IMG/VR virus record: IMGVR_UViG_3300025131_000069
Span: 1-48,707 of that record
Source: a virus
Reading direction: 5' to 3' (one strand)
Length of the DNA: 48,707 nt
Of this stretch, positions 5,309-48,707 are shown in pieces. The notes beneath the pieces are model-generated. The model did no database searches, had not been told where the DNA came from, and worked only from the letters and a program-made list of their open reading frames with translations. Position numbers and translations under genes: made by a program. Position 1 is the stretch's first letter. Each line of letters begins with the position of its first letter.

Positions 5309-6924
5309 TGAGTAAAGACTTAAAAAAAGTGATAAAAAGAGAATATTTAAATTGTTCTCAAGACCCAATACATTTTATGAGAAAATACTGCACGATTCAA
5401 CATCCTACCAAAGGTAAAATTAAATTTGATTTATATAATTTTCAAGAGAATTGTTTAAGAGATTTTAAAGATAATGAATATAATATAATACTTAAATCTC
5501 GTCAATTAGGTATTTCTACACTTACTGCTGGTTATTCACTCTGGATGATGTTATTCAATTCAGATAAAAATATTCTTGTAATTGCAAAAGATAAAGATAC
5601 TGCAAAAAATCTTGTTACAAAAGTAAGAGTTATGTACGCAGGGTTACCATCTTGGTTAAAAACAACAGTTGATGAGGATAACAAACTTTCTCTCAGATTT
5701 AAAAATGGTTCACAGATTAAAGCAGTAGCTGCGACACAAGAAGCAGGTCGTTCTGAAGCATTATCACTTCTCGTTCTTGATGAGGCTGCATTTATTGATA
5801 AAATTGATGATATATGGACAGCTGCTCAACAAACATTGGCAACTGGTGGTAACTGTATAGCACTATCAACTCCTAATGGTGTGGGTAATTGGTTTCACAA
5901 ACAATGGATGGATGCAAACTCTGGAAGTAATAGATTTAATACCATTAGACTTCATTGGACAGACCACCCAGATAGAGGAGAGGATTGGAGAAAAGAACAG
6001 GATGTCATTTTGGGTCCATCTAAAGCTGCACAAGAATGTGATGCTGACTTTCTTACTTCTGGTGAATCTGTAGTTGACTCTGTGATTTTACAATGGTATA
6101 AAGAGCATATGATTAAGGCTCCAATTGAAGAGGCTGGTATAGATAGAAATCTATGGATTTGGAAACAACCTGATTATTCTAAAAAATATATAGTGGTTGC
6201 TGATGTGGCTCGTGGTGACGGGAGTGATTATTCAGCTACTCAAGTATTTGAATTGGAAAGTATGGAACAGGTTGCAGAATATAAAGGACAATTGTCTACT
6301 ACGGATTATGGAAACTTCTTAATTGAATTAGCCACAAAATACAATGATGCTCTACTTGTAGTTGAAAACAACAATATCGGATGGGCTACAATACAAACCA
6401 TCATAGATAGAAATTATAAAAATTTATTTTACCAATCAAAAGATTTACAAGTTGTTGATGTTGAACATAATATGAGTAATAAATATAGAGCACAAGATAG
6501 AAGTATGGTGCCTGGCTTTTCAACAACTGCAAAAACTCGACCATTGATTATAGCAAAAATGGAAGAATATACAAGAGAAAAATTAGTAAAAGTAAATTCT
6601 AGTAGACTTATAGATGAGTTATTTGTATTTATTTATAAAACTGGAATGGTAAATATGCGAGCGGAAGCTATGCAAGGTTATAACGATGACTTAGTTATGT
6701 CTTATTCAATCGCTTTGTGGGTTAGAGATACGGCTCTAAGATTACAAAGTGAAAAGAATGACCAGCAATGGGCAATGATGAATTCCTTACTTGATAAAAA
6801 CGGTAATAGACCCGATTATAGTAAAGGATTTCAAAAAGGCCAATCTGGTATGCCTTCAAAAAATCCATATGAAATGGAAATAAATGAAAAAGAAAAAGAA
6901 GATTTAACTTGGTTAATTAAATAA
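5308..6924 (+). CDS. Terminase large subunit (gp17-like)
   Basis: 538 residues, the usual size. The N-terminal ATPase has a Walker A-like S-R-Q-L-G-I-S-T (about 64-71) and Walker B L-L-V-L-D-E-A (154-160). A C-terminal RNase H-like nuclease follows, with D299 in VVADVARGDGSDYS, a second acidic strand VVENNN (about 351-356) and a late N-D-D-L-V-M-S motif. It packages DNA into the prohead through the portal, whose gene follows 10 bases later. No obvious small terminase gene is seen adjacent. Identification is confident. Confidence 0.95.
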   Translation: MSKDLKKVIKREYLNCSQDPIHFMRKYCTIQHPTKGKIKFDLYNFQENCLRDFKDNEYNIILKSRQLGISTLTAGYSLWMMLFNSDKNILVIAKDKDTAKNLVTKVRVMYAGLPSWLKTTVDEDNKLSLRFKNGSQIKAVAATQEAGRSEALSLLVLDEAAFIDKIDDIWTAAQQTLATGGNCIALSTPNGVGNWFHKQWMDANSGSNRFNTIRLHWTDHPDRGEDWRKEQDVILGPSKAAQECDADFLTSGESVVDSVILQWYKEHMIKAPIEEAGIDRNLWIWKQPDYSKKYIVVADVARGDGSDYSATQVFELESMEQVAEYKGQLSTTDYGNFLIELATKYNDALLVVENNNIGWATIQTIIDRNYKNLFYQSKDLQVVDVEHNMSNKYRAQDRSMVPGFSTTAKTRPLIIAKMEEYTREKLVKVNSSRLIDELFVFIYKTGMVNMRAEAMQGYNDDLVMSYSIALWVRDTALRLQSEKNDQQWAMMNSLLDKNGNRPDYSKGFQKGQSGMPSKNPYEMEINEKEKEDLTWLIK

Positions 6925-16869: not shown

Positions 16870-17904
16870 ATGGCTAAAGGATTAGATTGTGGCACAAGTT
16901 ATTATATAACAGCCACAGAAAATAGTATAAAAAAACAAAGAAATGTATTCTTGACAGTTGATGGTGATGCTGCTCAAGTAAAACGAATGTTGAAGAGACA
17001 GAAGATACCATTTGTTGAAAAAGCGGGTAAAGTTCACATCGTTGGACAACACGCTTTTAATTATGCTCAAATATTTAGTACGACAGAATTAAGACGGCCA
17101 ATGGCACAAGGTATGTTGAATCCAAAAGAAAAAGATTCTCTACCTATTTTAAATGCAATCATTGGTGAGTTGATTGGTAAAGCTAAGAAGGGTGAAACTT
17201 GTGTTTATTGTATACCAGCAAAACCAATCGACCAAACACGAGAAGTTTCTTATCACGAAGATGTGTTGAAACAGATTATTGGAACTTATGGATATAATGT
17301 TAAAGTGATTGAAGAGTCAGTTGCTTTGGCTTATGAGGGTTTAGTAGATAATGACTTAACAGGTATCGCTATCTCAATGGGTGCTGGTATGTGTAATGTA
17401 TGTGTAATGTATCAAGGCATGAGTGCACTCTCCTTTTCTGTAGCAAGAGGTGGAGATTGGATAGATGAAAATGTAGCATCGGATTGTGGTGTTACAAAGG
17501 CAAAAGTAATTTCAATAAAAGAGAGTTCAAGTAATCTAGATTTAACAAAGAGTGCAATAAACGATATTTATCAAGAGGGAAGTGATGAGTACAATATCAT
17601 AAATGCTATTCGTTCTTATTACGGAGCATTAATCAACTATCTGTTGACAAACTTAAAACATCAGTTTGAAAATGCTGAAAGTGTACCAAACTTCCCAGAA
17701 TCAATTCCAATTGTATTTGGTGGTGGAACATCATTAGTTAAAGGTTTTATGGATGTTGTAAGTGAACAATTTAATCAGGATGAGTTCCCTATACCAGTTA
17801 AAGAATTTACATTAGTCGAAGATGCTCACACAGCAGTTGCTAGAGGTTGTTTGAGTGAAGCTCAATTAATTGAGGAGGAAGAAGGTGAAGAAAACGACAG
17901 TTAA
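16870..17904 (+). CDS. Actin-like ATPase (actin/Hsp70/ParM superfamily)
   Basis: 344 residues with the actin-fold nucleotide motifs in order: phosphate 1 GLDCGTSYY (4-12), phosphate 2 IAISMGAGMCNV (about 166-177) with GGDWID after it, and adenosine motif IPIVFGGGTSLVKGF (about 279-293). The C-terminus is very acidic. Phage actins can form filaments that move or segregate DNA or particles; Hsp70-like chaperone action is the alternative. Its place inside the head operon suggests a link to head assembly or particle positioning. The 3' end overlaps the next gene. Confidence 0.75.
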   Translation: MAKGLDCGTSYYITATENSIKKQRNVFLTVDGDAAQVKRMLKRQKIPFVEKAGKVHIVGQHAFNYAQIFSTTELRRPMAQGMLNPKEKDSLPILNAIIGELIGKAKKGETCVYCIPAKPIDQTREVSYHEDVLKQIIGTYGYNVKVIEESVALAYEGLVDNDLTGIAISMGAGMCNVCVMYQGMSALSFSVARGGDWIDENVASDCGVTKAKVISIKESSSNLDLTKSAINDIYQEGSDEYNIINAIRSYYGALINYLLTNLKHQFENAESVPNFPESIPIVFGGGTSLVKGFMDVVSEQFNQDEFPIPVKEFTLVEDAHTAVARGCLSEAQLIEEEEGEENDS

Positions 17905-25334: not shown

Positions 25335-27176
25335 ATGGCTGAGAAAGTAATTTCCCCAGGAGTATTTACAAACGAGATAGACCAAGCATTTTTACCAGCA
25401 GCAATAGGAGAGATAGGAGCAGCACTAGTAGGCCCGACAGTAAAAGGTCCAGCTATGAGACCGACTGTTGTTTCTTCTTATTCTGAATTTCAACAAGTAT
25501 TTGGAAGTACATTTCAAAGTGGAAGTAGTTTTACACAATATCTAACTTCACATGCTGCAAAACAATATTTAAAACACGGTAATGCATTAACAGTTGTTAG
25601 AGTATTAGAGGGTAGTTACACAGTAGCAGCTGCTGCGGTGCATACCGGCTCAGGTAATAACTATACAGGTAGTAGAACTCCAGAGTTAGCTGATAATGCA
25701 GCTGATTCATCATTTAAATTACATACACTTTCACATGGTGCTATATTAAATAATAGAGGGAATACTGGTACTTGTGCAGTTCATACAGGTTCCAATAACA
25801 CATTAGCTTCAGGTTCAGTTGATAATCTCAGATGGGAAATACCAACTTTAAATCAGTCAAAAGGTACATTTACTTTACTAATTAGACAAGGTAGTGATAC
25901 TGAAAAAAGAAAACAAGTTTTAGAAACTTGGAATGACTTATCTCTTGACCCTAATGCTAATAATTATATAGCAAAAAGAATCGGTGATTCTAGTACAACA
26001 TTGGCTGGAACAGTGTCAGAACCATATGTAACAGAAAATGGAACTTTCCCTAATAAATCAAAATATGTAAGAGTAGAAGTATTAAAGAAAACTCCTACTT
26101 ATCTTGATACAAACGGAAATATTTCAGAAAATGCATTTTCAGCATCTTTACCAGGTCTAGGGAGTGGTTCTTTTCATGGTTCATTTAATGGTGGAGATAA
26201 TGGATATGGAGGATTTGATGGGCAAGGTAATTTACAAGGTACTAACACTACAGCGACTAATTACACATTTTACAATAATATAACCACTGAAACACAAGGA
26301 TTTGCAATGTCAGCTGATGGTGATGGAACTGATGCTTATACAAAAGCAGTTAACTTGTTAAAAAATCAAGATGCATATGATATCAATCTATTGTTTATGC
26401 CAGGAATTATAGCTAGTAGACACGGTGGAATAGTAAGTACAGCTATTGATGCAATGGAAGATAGAAATGACGCATTTTTTGTCATCGACCCTGTAACTTA
26501 TGGTAGTGGTATAACAGATGCAACAACAGAGGCAGAGTCAAGAGATACAAACTTTGCAGCAATGTATTGGCCTTGGGTTCAAATACCTGATGATGAGTTA
26601 GGTCTTAGTAGATTTGTTCCACCATCAGTTGTTATACCCGGAATATATGCTTTTAACGATAAAGTAGCTCAACCTTGGTTCGCTCCGGCCGGTTTAAATC
26701 GTGGTGGAATTGATGTAGCTATACAAGCTGAAAGAAAATTAACTCATGCTAACAGAGATACCTTGTATAACTCTAGTGTCAACCCAATTGCTACATTTCC
26801 TGGTCAAGGAGTATGTGTTTGGGGTCAAAAAACACTACAGAAAAAATCAAGTGCGTTGGATAGAGTTAATGTACGAAGACTATTAATCAAAGTTAAGAAG
26901 TTCATAGCTTCTTCTTCAAGATTCTTAGTATTTGAACAGAATAATGCTCAAACAAGAGGTAGATTTTTAAATATAGTTAATCCATTTTTAGAACAAGTTC
27001 AAGCACAAAGTGGATTAACAGCTTTTAAAGTAGTTATGGATGAAACAAACAATACACCAGATGTAGTTGATAGAAACATATTATATGGTCAGTTGTTTTT
27101 ACAACCTACACGAACTGCTGAATTTATTGTATTAGACTTTACAATACAACCTACAGGTGCTACATTCCCTGAATAA
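25335..27176 (+). CDS. Tail sheath protein 1 (gp18-like)
   Basis: 613 residues. The start (ISPGVFTNEIDQAFLPAAIG, then GPTVKGPAMRPTVVSSY) and end (RNILYGQLFLQPTRTAEFIV, then LDFTIQPTGATFPE) are diagnostic of contractile tail sheath subunits. The conserved handshake/core domains lie at both ends, with a variable middle. It forms the contractile sheath around the tube. A longer paralogue follows 13 bases later. Confidence 0.93.
   Translation: MAEKVISPGVFTNEIDQAFLPAAIGEIGAALVGPTVKGPAMRPTVVSSYSEFQQVFGSTFQSGSSFTQYLTSHAAKQYLKHGNALTVVRVLEGSYTVAAAAVHTGSGNNYTGSRTPELADNAADSSFKLHTLSHGAILNNRGNTGTCAVHTGSNNTLASGSVDNLRWEIPTLNQSKGTFTLLIRQGSDTEKRKQVLETWNDLSLDPNANNYIAKRIGDSSTTLAGTVSEPYVTENGTFPNKSKYVRVEVLKKTPTYLDTNGNISENAFSASLPGLGSGSFHGSFNGGDNGYGGFDGQGNLQGTNTTATNYTFYNNITTETQGFAMSADGDGTDAYTKAVNLLKNQDAYDINLLFMPGIIASRHGGIVSTAIDAMEDRNDAFFVIDPVTYGSGITDATTEAESRDTNFAAMYWPWVQIPDDELGLSRFVPPSVVIPGIYAFNDKVAQPWFAPAGLNRGGIDVAIQAERKLTHANRDTLYNSSVNPIATFPGQGVCVWGQKTLQKKSSALDRVNVRRLLIKVKKFIASSSRFLVFEQNNAQTRGRFLNIVNPFLEQVQAQSGLTAFKVVMDETNNTPDVVDRNILYGQLFLQPTRTAEFIVLDFTIQPTGATFPE
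25923..25985 (+). repeat. 63-base identical segment shared by the two sheath genes, copy 1
   Basis: Begins GAAACTTGGAATGACTTATC and ends AAAAGAATCGGT. By eye it matches 28219-28281 base for base although flanking sequence has diverged. Confidence 0.85.
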
Positions 27177-27189
27177 ACGGAGATAATAA

Positions 27190-29454
27190 TTGGCCGAGAA
27201 AATAATAAGTCCAGGAGTATTTACTAAAGAAATAGATGAAACATTTTTACCAGCAGCAATAGGTGATATAGGAGCCGCAGTTGTTGGACCAACTGTAAAA
27301 GGTCCTGTTTTAGTTCCAACAACAGTATCTTCTTATGCTGAATTTCAAAATCTTTTTGGCGACACTTTTAAATCTGGAAGTGATTATTATACTTATTTGA
27401 CTTCACAAACTGCAGAACAATATTTAAAAGACGGTAATAGACTTACTGTCGTTAGAGTTGCAGGTGATGGATACAGTAAAGCAACTTCAGATGTACCTAA
27501 CAGAACAGGCCAAAAATTAATTTTAGATTTTGCAGCTCCAGGCACTCCTAGTGCCACAGGCCCTAATGGTCCAACAATTTATGTTACAGGTCCTGTTGGA
27601 AATGCATCAACAAGTACTACAATTGGATTTAAAATTACAGGTTCTAGACATGCCACTGATTCAGGTCACAGTGCAGTAAATGCAATAACAGGTAGTACTG
27701 CCAATGAAATAGCTAAAAACTTTGCTGCATCAGCAAGTATGAAATTTAATCCAAATATTACTGGTAGTTCAGATACATCTGATGCATTTACAACTCTAGG
27801 TAAAAGAAATTTTTCCGGTGTTAAAGTTGAACTTGCTAGTGATATTGTAACTTTAACAACAGTCTCTTCTAGTAAATTTTATAATGATTTAAGTTCAAGC
27901 TTTGGAGAAATATCAGCTGACTCAGCTGATAGTGCTTCAATTACAACAAGATGGGGTACTTTAGAGGATACAGGAACAGCATTCACATTAAATACTAAAG
28001 TAGCTGGAGAAATATTTAACAATAGACCACCTTCATCAATTTTATCATCATATGATGATTTCACAGGTAGTTTTTCTTTAGCAGGTAATAAAAATATATT
28101 AACATCTGGTAGTGAAGATAATCTTAGATATGAAGTATCGAATGTAAATGTAAAAAAAGGTACATTTACTCTTTTAATAAGAAAAGGTACAGATATTGAC
28201 AATAGAAAAGAAATTTTCGAAACTTGGAATGACTTATCTCTTGACCCTAATGCTAATAATTATATAGCAAAAAGAATCGGTAATCAATATTATGATATTG
28301 CAGGTACTACAGCAGAACCATATATACAGGCTTATGGAGAATATCCTGTAAAAAGTAAATTTGTCTATGTATCAAATGTTACTGATACACCAAATTATTT
28401 AGATGAAAATGGAAATATAAGATTAAATGCTGCATCAGCATCATTACCAGCACTTGGTAGTGGTTCTTTCCATGGTGCATTCAATGGTGGTAGTAATGGA
28501 GCTATCCAACATCCACAAAAATTTAGTGAGAATATAAACATAAATTCACAAGGTTTATATTTACATGCATCAACGACAGATACAGGTTCTGCTTCATATG
28601 AAAAAGCAATAAATCTTTTGGCAAATCAAGATGAGTATGATATAAATTTATTATTCTTACCAGGTATAATTTCAGGTGAAGGTACTTCTAATTCATACCA
28701 TTCTTCTATAGCAGCAAAAGCAATAGATATGTGTGAATCCAGAGGAGATTGTTTTACAGTTATTGACCCTGTTGCTCATGGTTCGTCTGTTACAGATGCA
28801 AAAACAGAAGCTGAAACAAGAGATTCAAGTTATGCAGCAATGTATTGGCCTTGGGTCAAATTAGCAAACAATAGGTTAGGTAAAATGTCTTGGGTACCAC
28901 CGTCAGTAGCAACTGCAGGTGTTTATACTTTTAATGATAAAGTATCTGAAGAATGGTTCGCTCCAGCTGGCTTAAATAGAGGAACTATAACTACAGCACA
29001 ATCTGCAGAAAGAGTATTACTACAAAAAGATAGAGATGACTTATATGATTCAAGCGTTAATCCAGTAGCTACATTTCCTGGTCAAGGAGTATGTTTATTT
29101 GGACAAAAAACTTTACAAAGAAAAGCTTCAGCACTTGACAGGGTTAATGTAAGACGATTACTTATTAGATTAAAGAAATTTATTGCTAGCACATCTCGTT
29201 TCTTAGTATTTGAACAGAATAACACAAAAACTAGAAAAAGATTTTTATCAATAGTTAATCCGTTTTTAGAAGATGTGAGAGTTGGAAGTGGATTAAATGA
29301 ATTTAAAGTTGTGATGGATAGCTCAAACAATACACCAGATATCGTAGATAGAAATATCTTATATGGTCAAATATTTGTTCAACCAACAAGAACTGCTGAA
29401 TTTATTGTATTAGACTTTACAGTACAACCTACAGGAGCTTCATTTCCTGAATAG
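27190..29454 (+). CDS. Tail sheath protein 2 (gp18-like paralogue)
   Basis: 754 residues with a TTG start; the start is supported by CGGAGA upstream and by the match of AEKIISPGVFTKEID to sheath 1. Both termini are very similar to sheath 1, but the middle holds a longer insertion (about residues 95-280) rich in Ser, Thr, Gly and Ala, likely a surface-exposed domain. Tandem duplication is evident. The two may co-assemble, or one may form a specialised part of the sheath. Confidence 0.92.
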   Translation: MAEKIISPGVFTKEIDETFLPAAIGDIGAAVVGPTVKGPVLVPTTVSSYAEFQNLFGDTFKSGSDYYTYLTSQTAEQYLKDGNRLTVVRVAGDGYSKATSDVPNRTGQKLILDFAAPGTPSATGPNGPTIYVTGPVGNASTSTTIGFKITGSRHATDSGHSAVNAITGSTANEIAKNFAASASMKFNPNITGSSDTSDAFTTLGKRNFSGVKVELASDIVTLTTVSSSKFYNDLSSSFGEISADSADSASITTRWGTLEDTGTAFTLNTKVAGEIFNNRPPSSILSSYDDFTGSFSLAGNKNILTSGSEDNLRYEVSNVNVKKGTFTLLIRKGTDIDNRKEIFETWNDLSLDPNANNYIAKRIGNQYYDIAGTTAEPYIQAYGEYPVKSKFVYVSNVTDTPNYLDENGNIRLNAASASLPALGSGSFHGAFNGGSNGAIQHPQKFSENININSQGLYLHASTTDTGSASYEKAINLLANQDEYDINLLFLPGIISGEGTSNSYHSSIAAKAIDMCESRGDCFTVIDPVAHGSSVTDAKTEAETRDSSYAAMYWPWVKLANNRLGKMSWVPPSVATAGVYTFNDKVSEEWFAPAGLNRGTITTAQSAERVLLQKDRDDLYDSSVNPVATFPGQGVCLFGQKTLQRKASALDRVNVRRLLIRLKKFIASTSRFLVFEQNNTKTRKRFLSIVNPFLEDVRVGSGLNEFKVVMDSSNNTPDIVDRNILYGQIFVQPTRTAEFIVLDFTVQPTGASFPE
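28219..28281 (+). repeat. 63-base identical segment shared by the two sheath genes, copy 2
   Basis: Second copy of the segment at 25923-25985. Confidence 0.85.
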
Positions 29455-47061: not shown

Positions 47062-47757
47062 ATGTCAGATAAAGAGTCTAACAAGGTTACAACAGAAACT
47101 AATCAAGAATCTACTTTATATTATTTTTACTCAGAAGGATGTGGATGGTGCAAAAGAGCTAACCCACTAGTTGATGAGTTAATTAAAGAAGGTAAAGATA
47201 TACTTAAACTAGATTTAGGTGTTGCAGATAATAAAAAGCTTTTAGAAGAAGTTAAAAAAGAATATGATGTTAAATGTGGAACACCTTTGTTTATTAATGC
47301 AGAAACAGGTCATAAAATATGCGGTTTCAGAGAAAAAGATATTCTCGAAAAATGGGTACGCGGCGAAGAAATTCCAGAACCACCAAGACCAAAAGGTCCA
47401 CCACCACCACCACCTCAAGATTTTGAAGATAAAGGACAAATTGATGAGTGGACTAAAAAATATTCAGAATGGGTAGAAGAAAATAAGCATATGCCTAATA
47501 TACCTCCTGCAGACCAGATGTTGGCGAGATTAAAACAACAGAGAACTGCTATGTTACAACAACAACAAGGTGGTGATGCAAGGATTGCTAACATCGAAAG
47601 AAAATTAGATGCACTGATGAAACATTTAGGTGTACCACCAGTTATGCCTGTACCGCCTCAAGGTGTTCAACCACCACAACCGCAGGTTAAACCAAGTGTT
47701 AAAGATGTAACTCAAGACATAAAAAAAACAGGAAAGATAAATAAAAAAGGTAAGTAA
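47062..47757 (+). CDS. Thioredoxin-fold protein with CGWC active site and Pro-rich tail
   Basis: 231 residues. Residues 1-110 form a thioredoxin/glutaredoxin-like domain: YYFYSEGCGWCKRANPLVDE holds the C-x-x-C, and VKCGTPLFIN holds the cis-Pro loop. The tail has a run of Pro, a helical Gln-rich segment and a second Pro-rich stretch ending in Lys. It probably reduces or forms disulfides. The tail may dock it to another protein or to the virion. First of three Cys-active genes in a row. Confidence 0.8.
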   Translation: MSDKESNKVTTETNQESTLYYFYSEGCGWCKRANPLVDELIKEGKDILKLDLGVADNKKLLEEVKKEYDVKCGTPLFINAETGHKICGFREKDILEKWVRGEEIPEPPRPKGPPPPPPQDFEDKGQIDEWTKKYSEWVEENKHMPNIPPADQMLARLKQQRTAMLQQQQGGDARIANIERKLDALMKHLGVPPVMPVPPQGVQPPQPQVKPSVKDVTQDIKKTGKINKKGK

Positions 47758-47759
47758 CT

Positions 47760-48182
47760 TTGAAATTCAAGTTTAAACCTACTCCTACTGTAGACAGAGA
47801 GGCAACTGAAGAAGAAATAAAATGTATTGAAGAGACTGAAAAGATGTTGGAGGGAGAAAATAAACTTCCACCAGCATCTCAGATGGCTCGAGACATAGCA
47901 AAGACTCATTGGAAATCTCTCAAAGCATGGTTACGAGGTTCTCAAACAATCACAACAACAGAAGAAGCTGAACGAAGATGGGAAATTTGTAAACAATGCC
48001 CTCATCTTCTCTACGATGAAACTAATCCAGATACAGGTAAGAAAGATGGTAGATGTACACATTGTGGTTGTTTTATGAATGTGAAAGTACATTATGCTGT
48101 AGCCGAATGTCCTATAGATAAATGGAAAAAACATTGTGGTTGTCAATGTGATTGTAAACACACAGGAGATTGTGATGAATAA
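47760..48182 (+). CDS. Cys-rich putative Zn-binding phage protein
   Basis: 140 residues, TTG start after an AAAGGTAAG site. The second half holds C-K-Q-C-P, R-C-T-H-C-G-C-F and A-E-C-P-I-D-K-W, a pattern I associate with a common small phage Zn protein, then an extra Cys-rich tail, HCGCQCDCKHTGDC. The TAA stop overlaps the next start. Location between two thioredoxins raises the possibility that it is their redox partner or substrate. Confidence 0.62.
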   Translation: MKFKFKPTPTVDREATEEEIKCIEETEKMLEGENKLPPASQMARDIAKTHWKSLKAWLRGSQTITTTEEAERRWEICKQCPHLLYDETNPDTGKKDGRCTHCGCFMNVKVHYAVAECPIDKWKKHCGCQCDCKHTGDCDE

Positions 48183-48510
48183 ATTAACACTAGCAGAATT
48201 AAATAGTATTTATCCACTTGGAGAAAATAGAATAGGAAAACCAATATTTATAGATTTCTATGCTGATTGGTGAGGACCTTGTAAGATGTTTGAGCAGGTG
48301 CTCAACGAAGTAGTACCAGAATACCAAGACAAAATACAAATGTATAAAGTTAACATTGAAGATGAACCACAAGTAGCACGACAATTTGGTGCCAGAAGCA
48401 TTCCTTATATGGCATTTATATCAGAGACTGGTGAAAGACAAACACAAGTTGGTTCTATGAATAAAGAAACACTCAAATATTATTTTGAAGGATTAATTTC
48501 AAAAAAATAA
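48175..48510 (+). CDS. Thioredoxin with in-frame UGA at the first active-site Cys; candidate selenoprotein
   Basis: 111 residues if UGA at 48271-48273 is read through. It starts at ATG 48175, with AGGAG at 48164-48168. The sequence FIDFYADW-UGA-GPCKMF is the classic thioredoxin W-C-G-P-C-K site with UGA as codon 33. The rest is a full thioredoxin (VNIEDEPQVARQFGARSIPY with cis-Pro, then MAFISETGERQTQVGSM). A SECIS-like hairpin follows the UGA. I infer selenocysteine insertion. Without readthrough the product is a useless 32-residue peptide; a start at 48286 would lack the active site. A sequencing error is the main alternative. Confidence 0.8.
48290..48305 (+). promoter_or_regulatory. SECIS-like hairpin downstream of the UGA codon
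   Basis: UUGAGC pairs perfectly with GCUCAA around loop AGGU; 22 bases lie between the UGA and the loop. Bacterial SECIS elements have a short stem just after UGA with a G among the first loop bases; E. coli fdhF has GCAGGU at the apex and here it is GCAGGU too. A U at 48289 could be bulged with G48288-C48306 below it. Confidence 0.75.
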
Positions 48511-48707
48511 AAAAAAAGTGGTGGTTTCGGAAATTTTATTATATATATAATAATTGTCTGAGAATGACAAAGTTTTTTGAAAGTTTTACCGGTAAGGGTT
48601 GTCAGTATGAAAATGGCTGAACAATAGCTTCCAAAGGTTATAAGGTGACATCGAGGTCTGTGGTGGACAATACAAGGGTCGTAACTGACTGAGTATTATA
48701 GGAGTAA
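48511..48707 (+). promoter_or_regulatory. Probable structured leader of the next gene
   Basis: No convincing gene. It begins with A-runs, then a perfect 18-base palindrome, TTATTATATATATAATAA (48536-48553). From about 48558 the GC content rises to about 40% by hand count, above the phage background. TTGTC (48554-48558) can pair with GACAA (48566-48570), or TGACAA can pair with TTGTCA downstream, so alternative folds exist. AGGAG near 48700 should serve a gene starting just outside the window. Confidence 0.4.

Follow-up and report, generated by a model that had tools for sequence, protein, structure and literature searches.

A phage thioredoxin gene with a conserved in-frame UGA and downstream hairpin very likely encodes a selenoprotein

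Thioredoxins that carry selenocysteine (Sec) in a UxxC active site are a listed bacterial family (PMC9312934, PMC13188914, citing Kim et al. 2015), and neither of these papers mentions phages or viruses. A tRNA-Sec has been predicted in Basilisk-like Bacillus phages, where its significance is unknown (PMC6145125), and in huge wastewater phages (PMC10747093), but no selenoprotein gene is named in the relevant passages of these two reports. Phages are also unmentioned in an ocean survey (PMC2398784), and outside RNR II, plastocyanin and Cu-Zn SOD the families treated in PMC9402790 had no or very few viral sequences. The open-access literature that we searched contained no phage selenoprotein gene; most subscription papers and all preprints were beyond our reach, and priority is unproven. 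The gene described here is nevertheless likely to be the first well-supported phage selenoprotein, in marine viruses of bacteria, with the reservation that selenium incorporation has not been shown. The bacterial selenoprotein family and the bacterial-type SECIS were known before; what is probably new is a conserved phage gene of this kind and the presence of a tRNA-Sec in a relative.

The window, by which we mean the whole stretch of virus DNA analyzed, consists of positions 1 to 48,707 of IMG/VR record IMGVR_UViG_3300025131_000069 (48,707 bases, 32% G+C). The features under study are collected in Table 1. The frame begins at ATG 48175 and ends at TAA 48508-48510, and the TGA at 48271-48273 is its sole internal stop, occupying the codon of the nucleophilic cysteine of W-U-G-P-C (the first cysteine of WCGPC). 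The Pfam Thioredoxin match spans the TGA (E 1.8e-19, with one TGA inside). The read-through protein scores 74.2 bits with PF00085 against a cut-off of 23.5, and 88.3 bits with TIGR01068, slightly below the cut-off of 96.8. An AlphaFold2 model shows a confident thioredoxin fold (pLDDT 95.3), and solved thioredoxin structures match the window protein with E values down to 6e-27. This is the last complete gene of the window, and its start, from the ATG onwards, shares 8 bases with the 3' end of the Cys-rich gene. The stretch that follows it (48511-48707) and the corresponding stretches of relatives L056, L057 and L063, between thioredoxin and gp32, are conserved and possibly structured; the window stretch gave a weak, truncated match to the manA RNA (15.5 bits, E 0.12), and full-length relatives fell below the Rfam cut-off.

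Table 1. Coordinates of the thioredoxin locus in the window and of the tRNA-Sec gene in a syntenic relative
Feature	Position	Strand	Remarks
Second thioredoxin-domain protein gene, Cys type, C-G-W-C	47062..47757	+	PF00085 28 bits, phrog_22, synteny; conserved neighbour
Cys-rich protein gene	47760..48182	+	Conserved neighbour; weak DUF6171 match
AGGAG, likely ribosome-binding site	48164..48168	+	6 bases 5' of ATG 48175; sequence inspection
Sec-thioredoxin gene (Sec inferred)	48175..48510	+	111 residues, predicted Sec at position 33, then TAA
In-frame UGA, read as selenocysteine (inferred)	48271..48273	+	First residue of U-G-P-C active site
SECIS-like hairpin	Stem 48290-48295 / 48300-48305, loop AGGU 48296-48299	+	Family stem/loop position, codon invariance, synonymous null
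tRNA-Sec of relative G001	103633-103723 (of G001)		RF01852, 69.4 bits against a cut-off of 47

With the bacterial Sec-thioredoxin (UxxC, PF00085) the phage gene has in common the thioredoxin fold, the U-G-P-C active site, a UGA for the first cysteine, and a hairpin within the coding frame shortly after the UGA. It differs in encoding a single-domain protein next to gp32 and UvsX, and in belonging to a clade that contains only phage sequences and is most closely related to Cys-type phage thioredoxins. As a separate observation, thioredoxin-like genes with W-UGA-G-P-C were also seen in bacterial sequences, namely in Melainabacteria, Obscuribacterales and Cyanobacteria MAGs (L043, L044, L046, L049, L050, L053, the last-named of these with two such genes in tandem, and L054), in Planctomycetota (L048, L052) and in Marinimicrobia (L045, L051).

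Scans of viral contigs yielded 18 relatives, the pattern F-[Y/C]-A-x-W-U-G-P-C-[K/R] gave 24 matching stretches, and an alignment-based search gave 80 loci. After removal of duplicates, UGA was present at the active-site codon in 20 distinct viral sequences, the window included, with proteins that are 45-94% identical. A single contig could not have ruled out a dead or mis-sequenced thioredoxin, in which the UGA would be a read error or a nonsense mutation that arose by chance. This explanation is refuted by the family comparison and is all but excluded: the codon is shared by the 20 distinct sequences and by independent metagenomes, the protein remains constrained past the UGA, and the codons of the hairpin are near-invariant. 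A read error is very unlikely because the gene recurs at 99% identity, with the same TGA, on two contigs that stem from other metagenomes. It could also be argued that the UGA is a true, perhaps regulated, stop, so that two separate products would be made, a peptide of 32 residues and, from the internal ATG 48286, a protein of 74. An open reading frame of this length does exist (48286-48510), but its ATG is not conserved, being CAA in L012 and L014, the active site would be split between its W and its C, and a stop would not alternate with cysteine. We consider this reading very unlikely. The coding pattern of the codons after the hairpin matches that of the codons before the UGA.

The hairpin UUGAGC-AGGU-GCUCAA lies at 48290-48305, with 16 bases between the UGA and the stem and 22 between the UGA and the loop. 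When codons were redrawn synonymously from the codon usage of the window genome, 4.6% of draws contained an equally good hairpin somewhere within the range searched (P 0.046), and 0.03% contained one at the exact site (P 0.0003). The isolated 55-nt segment favours a different fold and its stability is unremarkable (z -1.08), and an Rfam search of the window and its relatives found no SECIS or other known RNA above threshold. The hairpin in the window sequence taken alone is thus only moderate evidence beyond chance; unlike that single-sequence argument, the family comparison is decisive for both the UGA and the hairpin. The initial annotation had described a complete thioredoxin interrupted only by a UGA at the nucleophilic cysteine, followed by a perfect 6-bp stem with an AGGU loop, and both of these claims held. 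Its placement of the hairpin 22 bases after the UGA is right for the loop only, and its treatment of the single hairpin as strong evidence was too strong. The alignment of homologues that it had suggested was run and came out in its favour, since the active-site column contains only UGA or UGU and the hairpin tracks the UGA except in one Cys member (L019).

Across the family, a stem of 4-9 bp with a loop beginning 22 nt after the UGA was found in 19 of the 20 UGA sequences, the exception being L010, which has one stem mismatch. The loop starts at nt 26 counted from the U of the UGA, and contains a G, in all of the AGGU, GGUC and GUG/GUA forms. The main type, seen in 15 phages, has an AGGU loop on a short stem of 4-6 bp. 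Its hairpin codons are nearly fixed (GAG 14/14, CAG 15/15, GTG 15/15, CTC 14/15), and these codons are rare in this genome, with shares of 0.138, 0.16, 0.073 and 0.033 of their respective synonymous codons. Differences at third positions amount to 0.031 in the hairpin codons, as against 0.358 before the UGA and 0.436 after. In L039, which has a GGUC loop, Gln-Val is replaced by Arg-Ser and yet a 4-bp stem is retained. At the same position, four sequences (L022, L030, L037, L040) form another stem, 9 bp long and capped by a GUG or GUA loop, from Ser-Ser-Val/Ile-Leu codons. There is so little sequence variation within the main type that its covariation is only modest: two pairs (3 cells) are changed on both sides, and 23 of 500 shuffles reach the score. 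Support for the hairpin therefore rests on codon invariance and on the occurrence of two stem types at one position, and the second stem type supports the stem more strongly than does the main-type covariation. Like the bacterial SECIS of the fdhF type, the phage element is a small in-frame hairpin with a G in the loop and 22 nt from UGA to loop; it differs in the short stem of its main type and in the 9-bp stem and GUG/GUA loop of its second type. Its AGGU loop, set on a G-C pair, is reminiscent of fdhF. We conclude that the hairpin is very likely a bacterial-type SECIS; binding of SelB is inferred.

A possible source of the decoding tRNA was found in G001 (113,475 bases), a syntenic relative that bears the Sec-thioredoxin, has a gene run collinear with the window and has a head protein 58% identical. 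Its tRNA-Sec has the anticodon UCA (tca in ARAGORN), an 8-bp acceptor, a 6-bp D stem and an encoded GCCA, and the stems are seen in its fold. G001 resembles the phages of the earlier reports (PMC6145125, PMC10747093) in carrying a tRNA-Sec gene, and differs in combining it with a conserved Sec gene on one record. It is the only record of the group in which a tRNA-Sec was found; none was detected in the window or in the shorter relatives, but these are fragments, so this proves nothing. No tRNA-Sec was found beside a neighbour gene in further relatives, and a 168-kb relative (G272) showed neither the thioredoxin nor a tRNA-Sec, the thioredoxin search there having had no positive control. SelB (TIGR00475) had no match in 13 phage records, mostly fragments. 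The initial annotation had implied, as one possibility, phage-supplied parts outside the window, and this held in part: the tRNA-Sec is there in a syntenic relative and SelB was not found in the 13 records. SelA, SelB and SelD are likely to be borrowed from the host, which is an inference. G001 also encodes a tRNA-Arg(tct) and a tmRNA with the tag GNEYQYMAVA (L132 15967-16387; G001 from 91967). Elsewhere, other virus contigs had a tRNA-Sec above the Rfam cut-off: L183 (592-683), L184 (9793-9884), L186, L190 (4455-4546), L209 (5113-5204), L195 (8121-8213, a 532-kb record) and L171 (8313-8407). Several of these genes adjoin a tRNA-Ala or tRNA-Thr, and in the group of L183, L184, L186, L190 and L209 no selenoprotein gene was recognised and no convincing conserved gene with an in-frame UGA was found.

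A further alternative is that the UGA is read as Trp, Cys or another amino acid through a suppressor tRNA or a changed code, and not as Sec. In its favour, decoding of UGA as Cys is conceivable in principle, and a related contig (L203, IMGVR_UViG_3300035698_018540) has a UCA tRNA that is matched by the general tRNA model but not by that of tRNA-Sec, adjoining an open reading frame with five in-frame UGA codons. This tRNA (6071-6163, minus strand) was called SeC by ARAGORN and an ordinary tRNA by Rfam (57.3 bits), and the reading frame preceding it is endonuclease-like, with its five TGA codons at Trp-looking places; the pair is likely a suppressor system and not a Sec system. Against this alternative for the thioredoxin, genes of both the window and G001 end in UGA (14 on the plus strand of G001), for the most part at stop-start overlaps, and a changed code for the whole phage was rejected on this ground. 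No other conserved in-frame UGA was found, either as conserved read-through in the window or among the inspected candidates in G001; the remaining candidates resemble upstream extensions, or mere shadows that a gene casts on the opposite strand or in another frame. These two results, gene termination by UGA and the lack of further conserved in-frame cases in that search, make a general reassignment unlikely. Moreover, the active-site column alternates with Cys only and never with Trp, the G001 tRNA fits RF01852 at 69.4 bits, and the conserved hairpin would be superfluous for a suppressor. We regard the suppressor reading as very unlikely.

The preferred reading is that the thioredoxin is a phage-encoded selenoprotein. 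We consider this very likely, and the initial interpretation as a Sec-thioredoxin is supported to that extent. The conserved UGA, the conserved hairpin, the coding constraint on both sides of the UGA, the synteny and the tRNA-Sec in a relative are shown; the insertion of selenium is inferred and was not measured, and the use of host SelA, SelB and SelD is likewise inferred. Several points weigh against it: the free window segment folds otherwise, L010 has a stem mismatch, main-type covariation is modest, tRNA-Sec was found in one record only, SelB was found in none of the 13 records, and L019 has the hairpin together with Cys. According to the proposed mechanism, when a host ribosome reaches the UGA at 48271, the hairpin would recruit SelB with Sec-tRNA-Sec, and selenocysteine would enter in place of the attacking cysteine of the thioredoxin. 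The host would supply SelA, SelB and SelD, and at least one relative would bring its own tRNA-Sec.

Six sequences of the syntenic locus have Cys at this position, and the hairpin is absent from five of them. These five (L017, L067, L069, L070, L071) have TGT and no hairpin at that place. L019 has TGT yet keeps a hairpin, UCAAGC-AGGU-GCUUGA, in which two stem pairs are changed on both sides relative to the window. The gene order (a conserved gene, the thioredoxin-domain gene, the Cys-rich gene, thioredoxin, gp32, UvsX) is identical in Sec and Cys members as far as the contigs reach. In the tree, all Sec genes cluster with the L017/L019 pair in a supported group (99/97), outside which L071, L067 and L070 fall. 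The simplest reading is that Sec was gained once from a Cys ancestor within phages and that the L017/L019 line reverted to Cys, in which case the L019 hairpin would be a relic of the Sec state. The placement of the pair is unresolved, and it remains possible that L017/L019 split off before Sec was gained.

Enzymes of the adenosylcobalamin-dependent ribonucleoside-triphosphate reductase (RTPR) class are reduced by thioredoxin via a C-terminal Cys pair, and with Sec as the nucleophile thiol exchange is usually faster and over-oxidation is resisted. An RTPR is encoded by G001 (TIGR02505, 355.9 bits against a cut-off of 340), with a Cys pair near its C-terminal end (CNNDTC), and some 6 kb downstream of the thioredoxin there are RTPR homologues in L056 and L057, which are contigs almost identical to the window, and in L059, L062, L066 and L039. 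Supply of dNTPs is the likeliest job for the protein because this thioredoxin-dependent class II ribonucleotide reductase lies about 6 kb downstream in relatives. The Sec-thioredoxin would then be a fast reductant recycling the phage RTPR. The proximity of the reductase in relatives is shown, but the electron acceptor is inferred, and whether the Sec-thioredoxin feeds the RTPR, and hence dNTP supply, is in our judgment evenly balanced. A competing view, to which we give a little less credence, is that Sec is inserted but serves mainly some other role, for example as a replication or recombination cofactor, as a reductant in oxidative stress, or as a partner of the Cys-rich and thioredoxin-domain proteins encoded beside it. 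In all members the gene stands directly 5' of gp32 and UvsX and 3' of two Cys-rich or thioredoxin-like genes, and phage T7 is known to use thioredoxin as a polymerase subunit. Against such a role, a catalytic Sec suggests redox chemistry, Sec members and Cys members both have an RTPR of the thioredoxin-dependent class close by, and the phage polymerase belongs to family B, unlike that of T7.

The window is of the far-T4 type, with terminase, portal, head protease, major head protein and tail sheath matching PHROGs. Among named phages its major head protein is nearest to those of Microcystis phage Mel-JY01, Flavobacterium phage immuto and Rhodothermus phage RM378 (identity 40-54%, covering 97-99% of the protein). 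Far-T4 and other annotated phages differ from it in their thioredoxins: the annotated collection held only distant ones, all matches were below 60% identity, and W-UGA-G-P-C was not found, though this was not checked residue by residue. Two other features of the genome were recorded. A volactin-family actin-like protein of the window (16870-17904; PF25216, 251.7 bits) shares 92% identity with its counterpart in G001, a conservation well above that of the structural genes, and two adjacent tail-sheath-like genes (25335-27176 and 27190-29454) with near-identical starts, both matched by a single G001 gene, are a tandem duplication. The best candidate for the host is Marinimicrobia (Fidelibacterota of NCBI, in the FCB group), but each line of evidence is weak, and this inferred assignment is tentative and unproven. 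SelB was above the cut-off in 136 of 199 Marinimicrobia genomes, a strong tRNA-Sec was present in 23 of 41, and one Marinimicrobia bin contains an 8.4-kb fragment of a related phage. The nearest of 68 compared tRNA-Secs to that of G001 was also from Marinimicrobia, but the margin was small, and tRNA-Sec likeness was rejected as a host marker.

It is possible to speculate further that a clade of viruses has fixed selenium-dependent catalysis in its own DNA-precursor route, with the Sec-thioredoxin driving the phage class II ribonucleotide reductase, the tRNA-Sec of some members raising UGA recoding during infection, and a side lineage having reverted to Cys with one relic hairpin. We put this bolder reading forward as one that may well prove wrong. 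Gene callers truncate such genes at the UGA, so phage selenoproteins have probably been missed routinely. The natural variants of this compact signal (its AGGU, GGUC and GUG loops, together with the hairpin kept by a Cys member) would be useful for tests of SelB recognition, and a Sec-thioredoxin offers a possible reason for the unexplained predictions of tRNA-Sec in phages. If the selenoprotein reading is true, this gene, with its RNA signal and, in one relative, a dedicated tRNA-Sec, would be the first case of a selenoprotein gene conserved among phages, and it would mean that viruses can rely on the 21st amino acid and on the selenium supply of their hosts.
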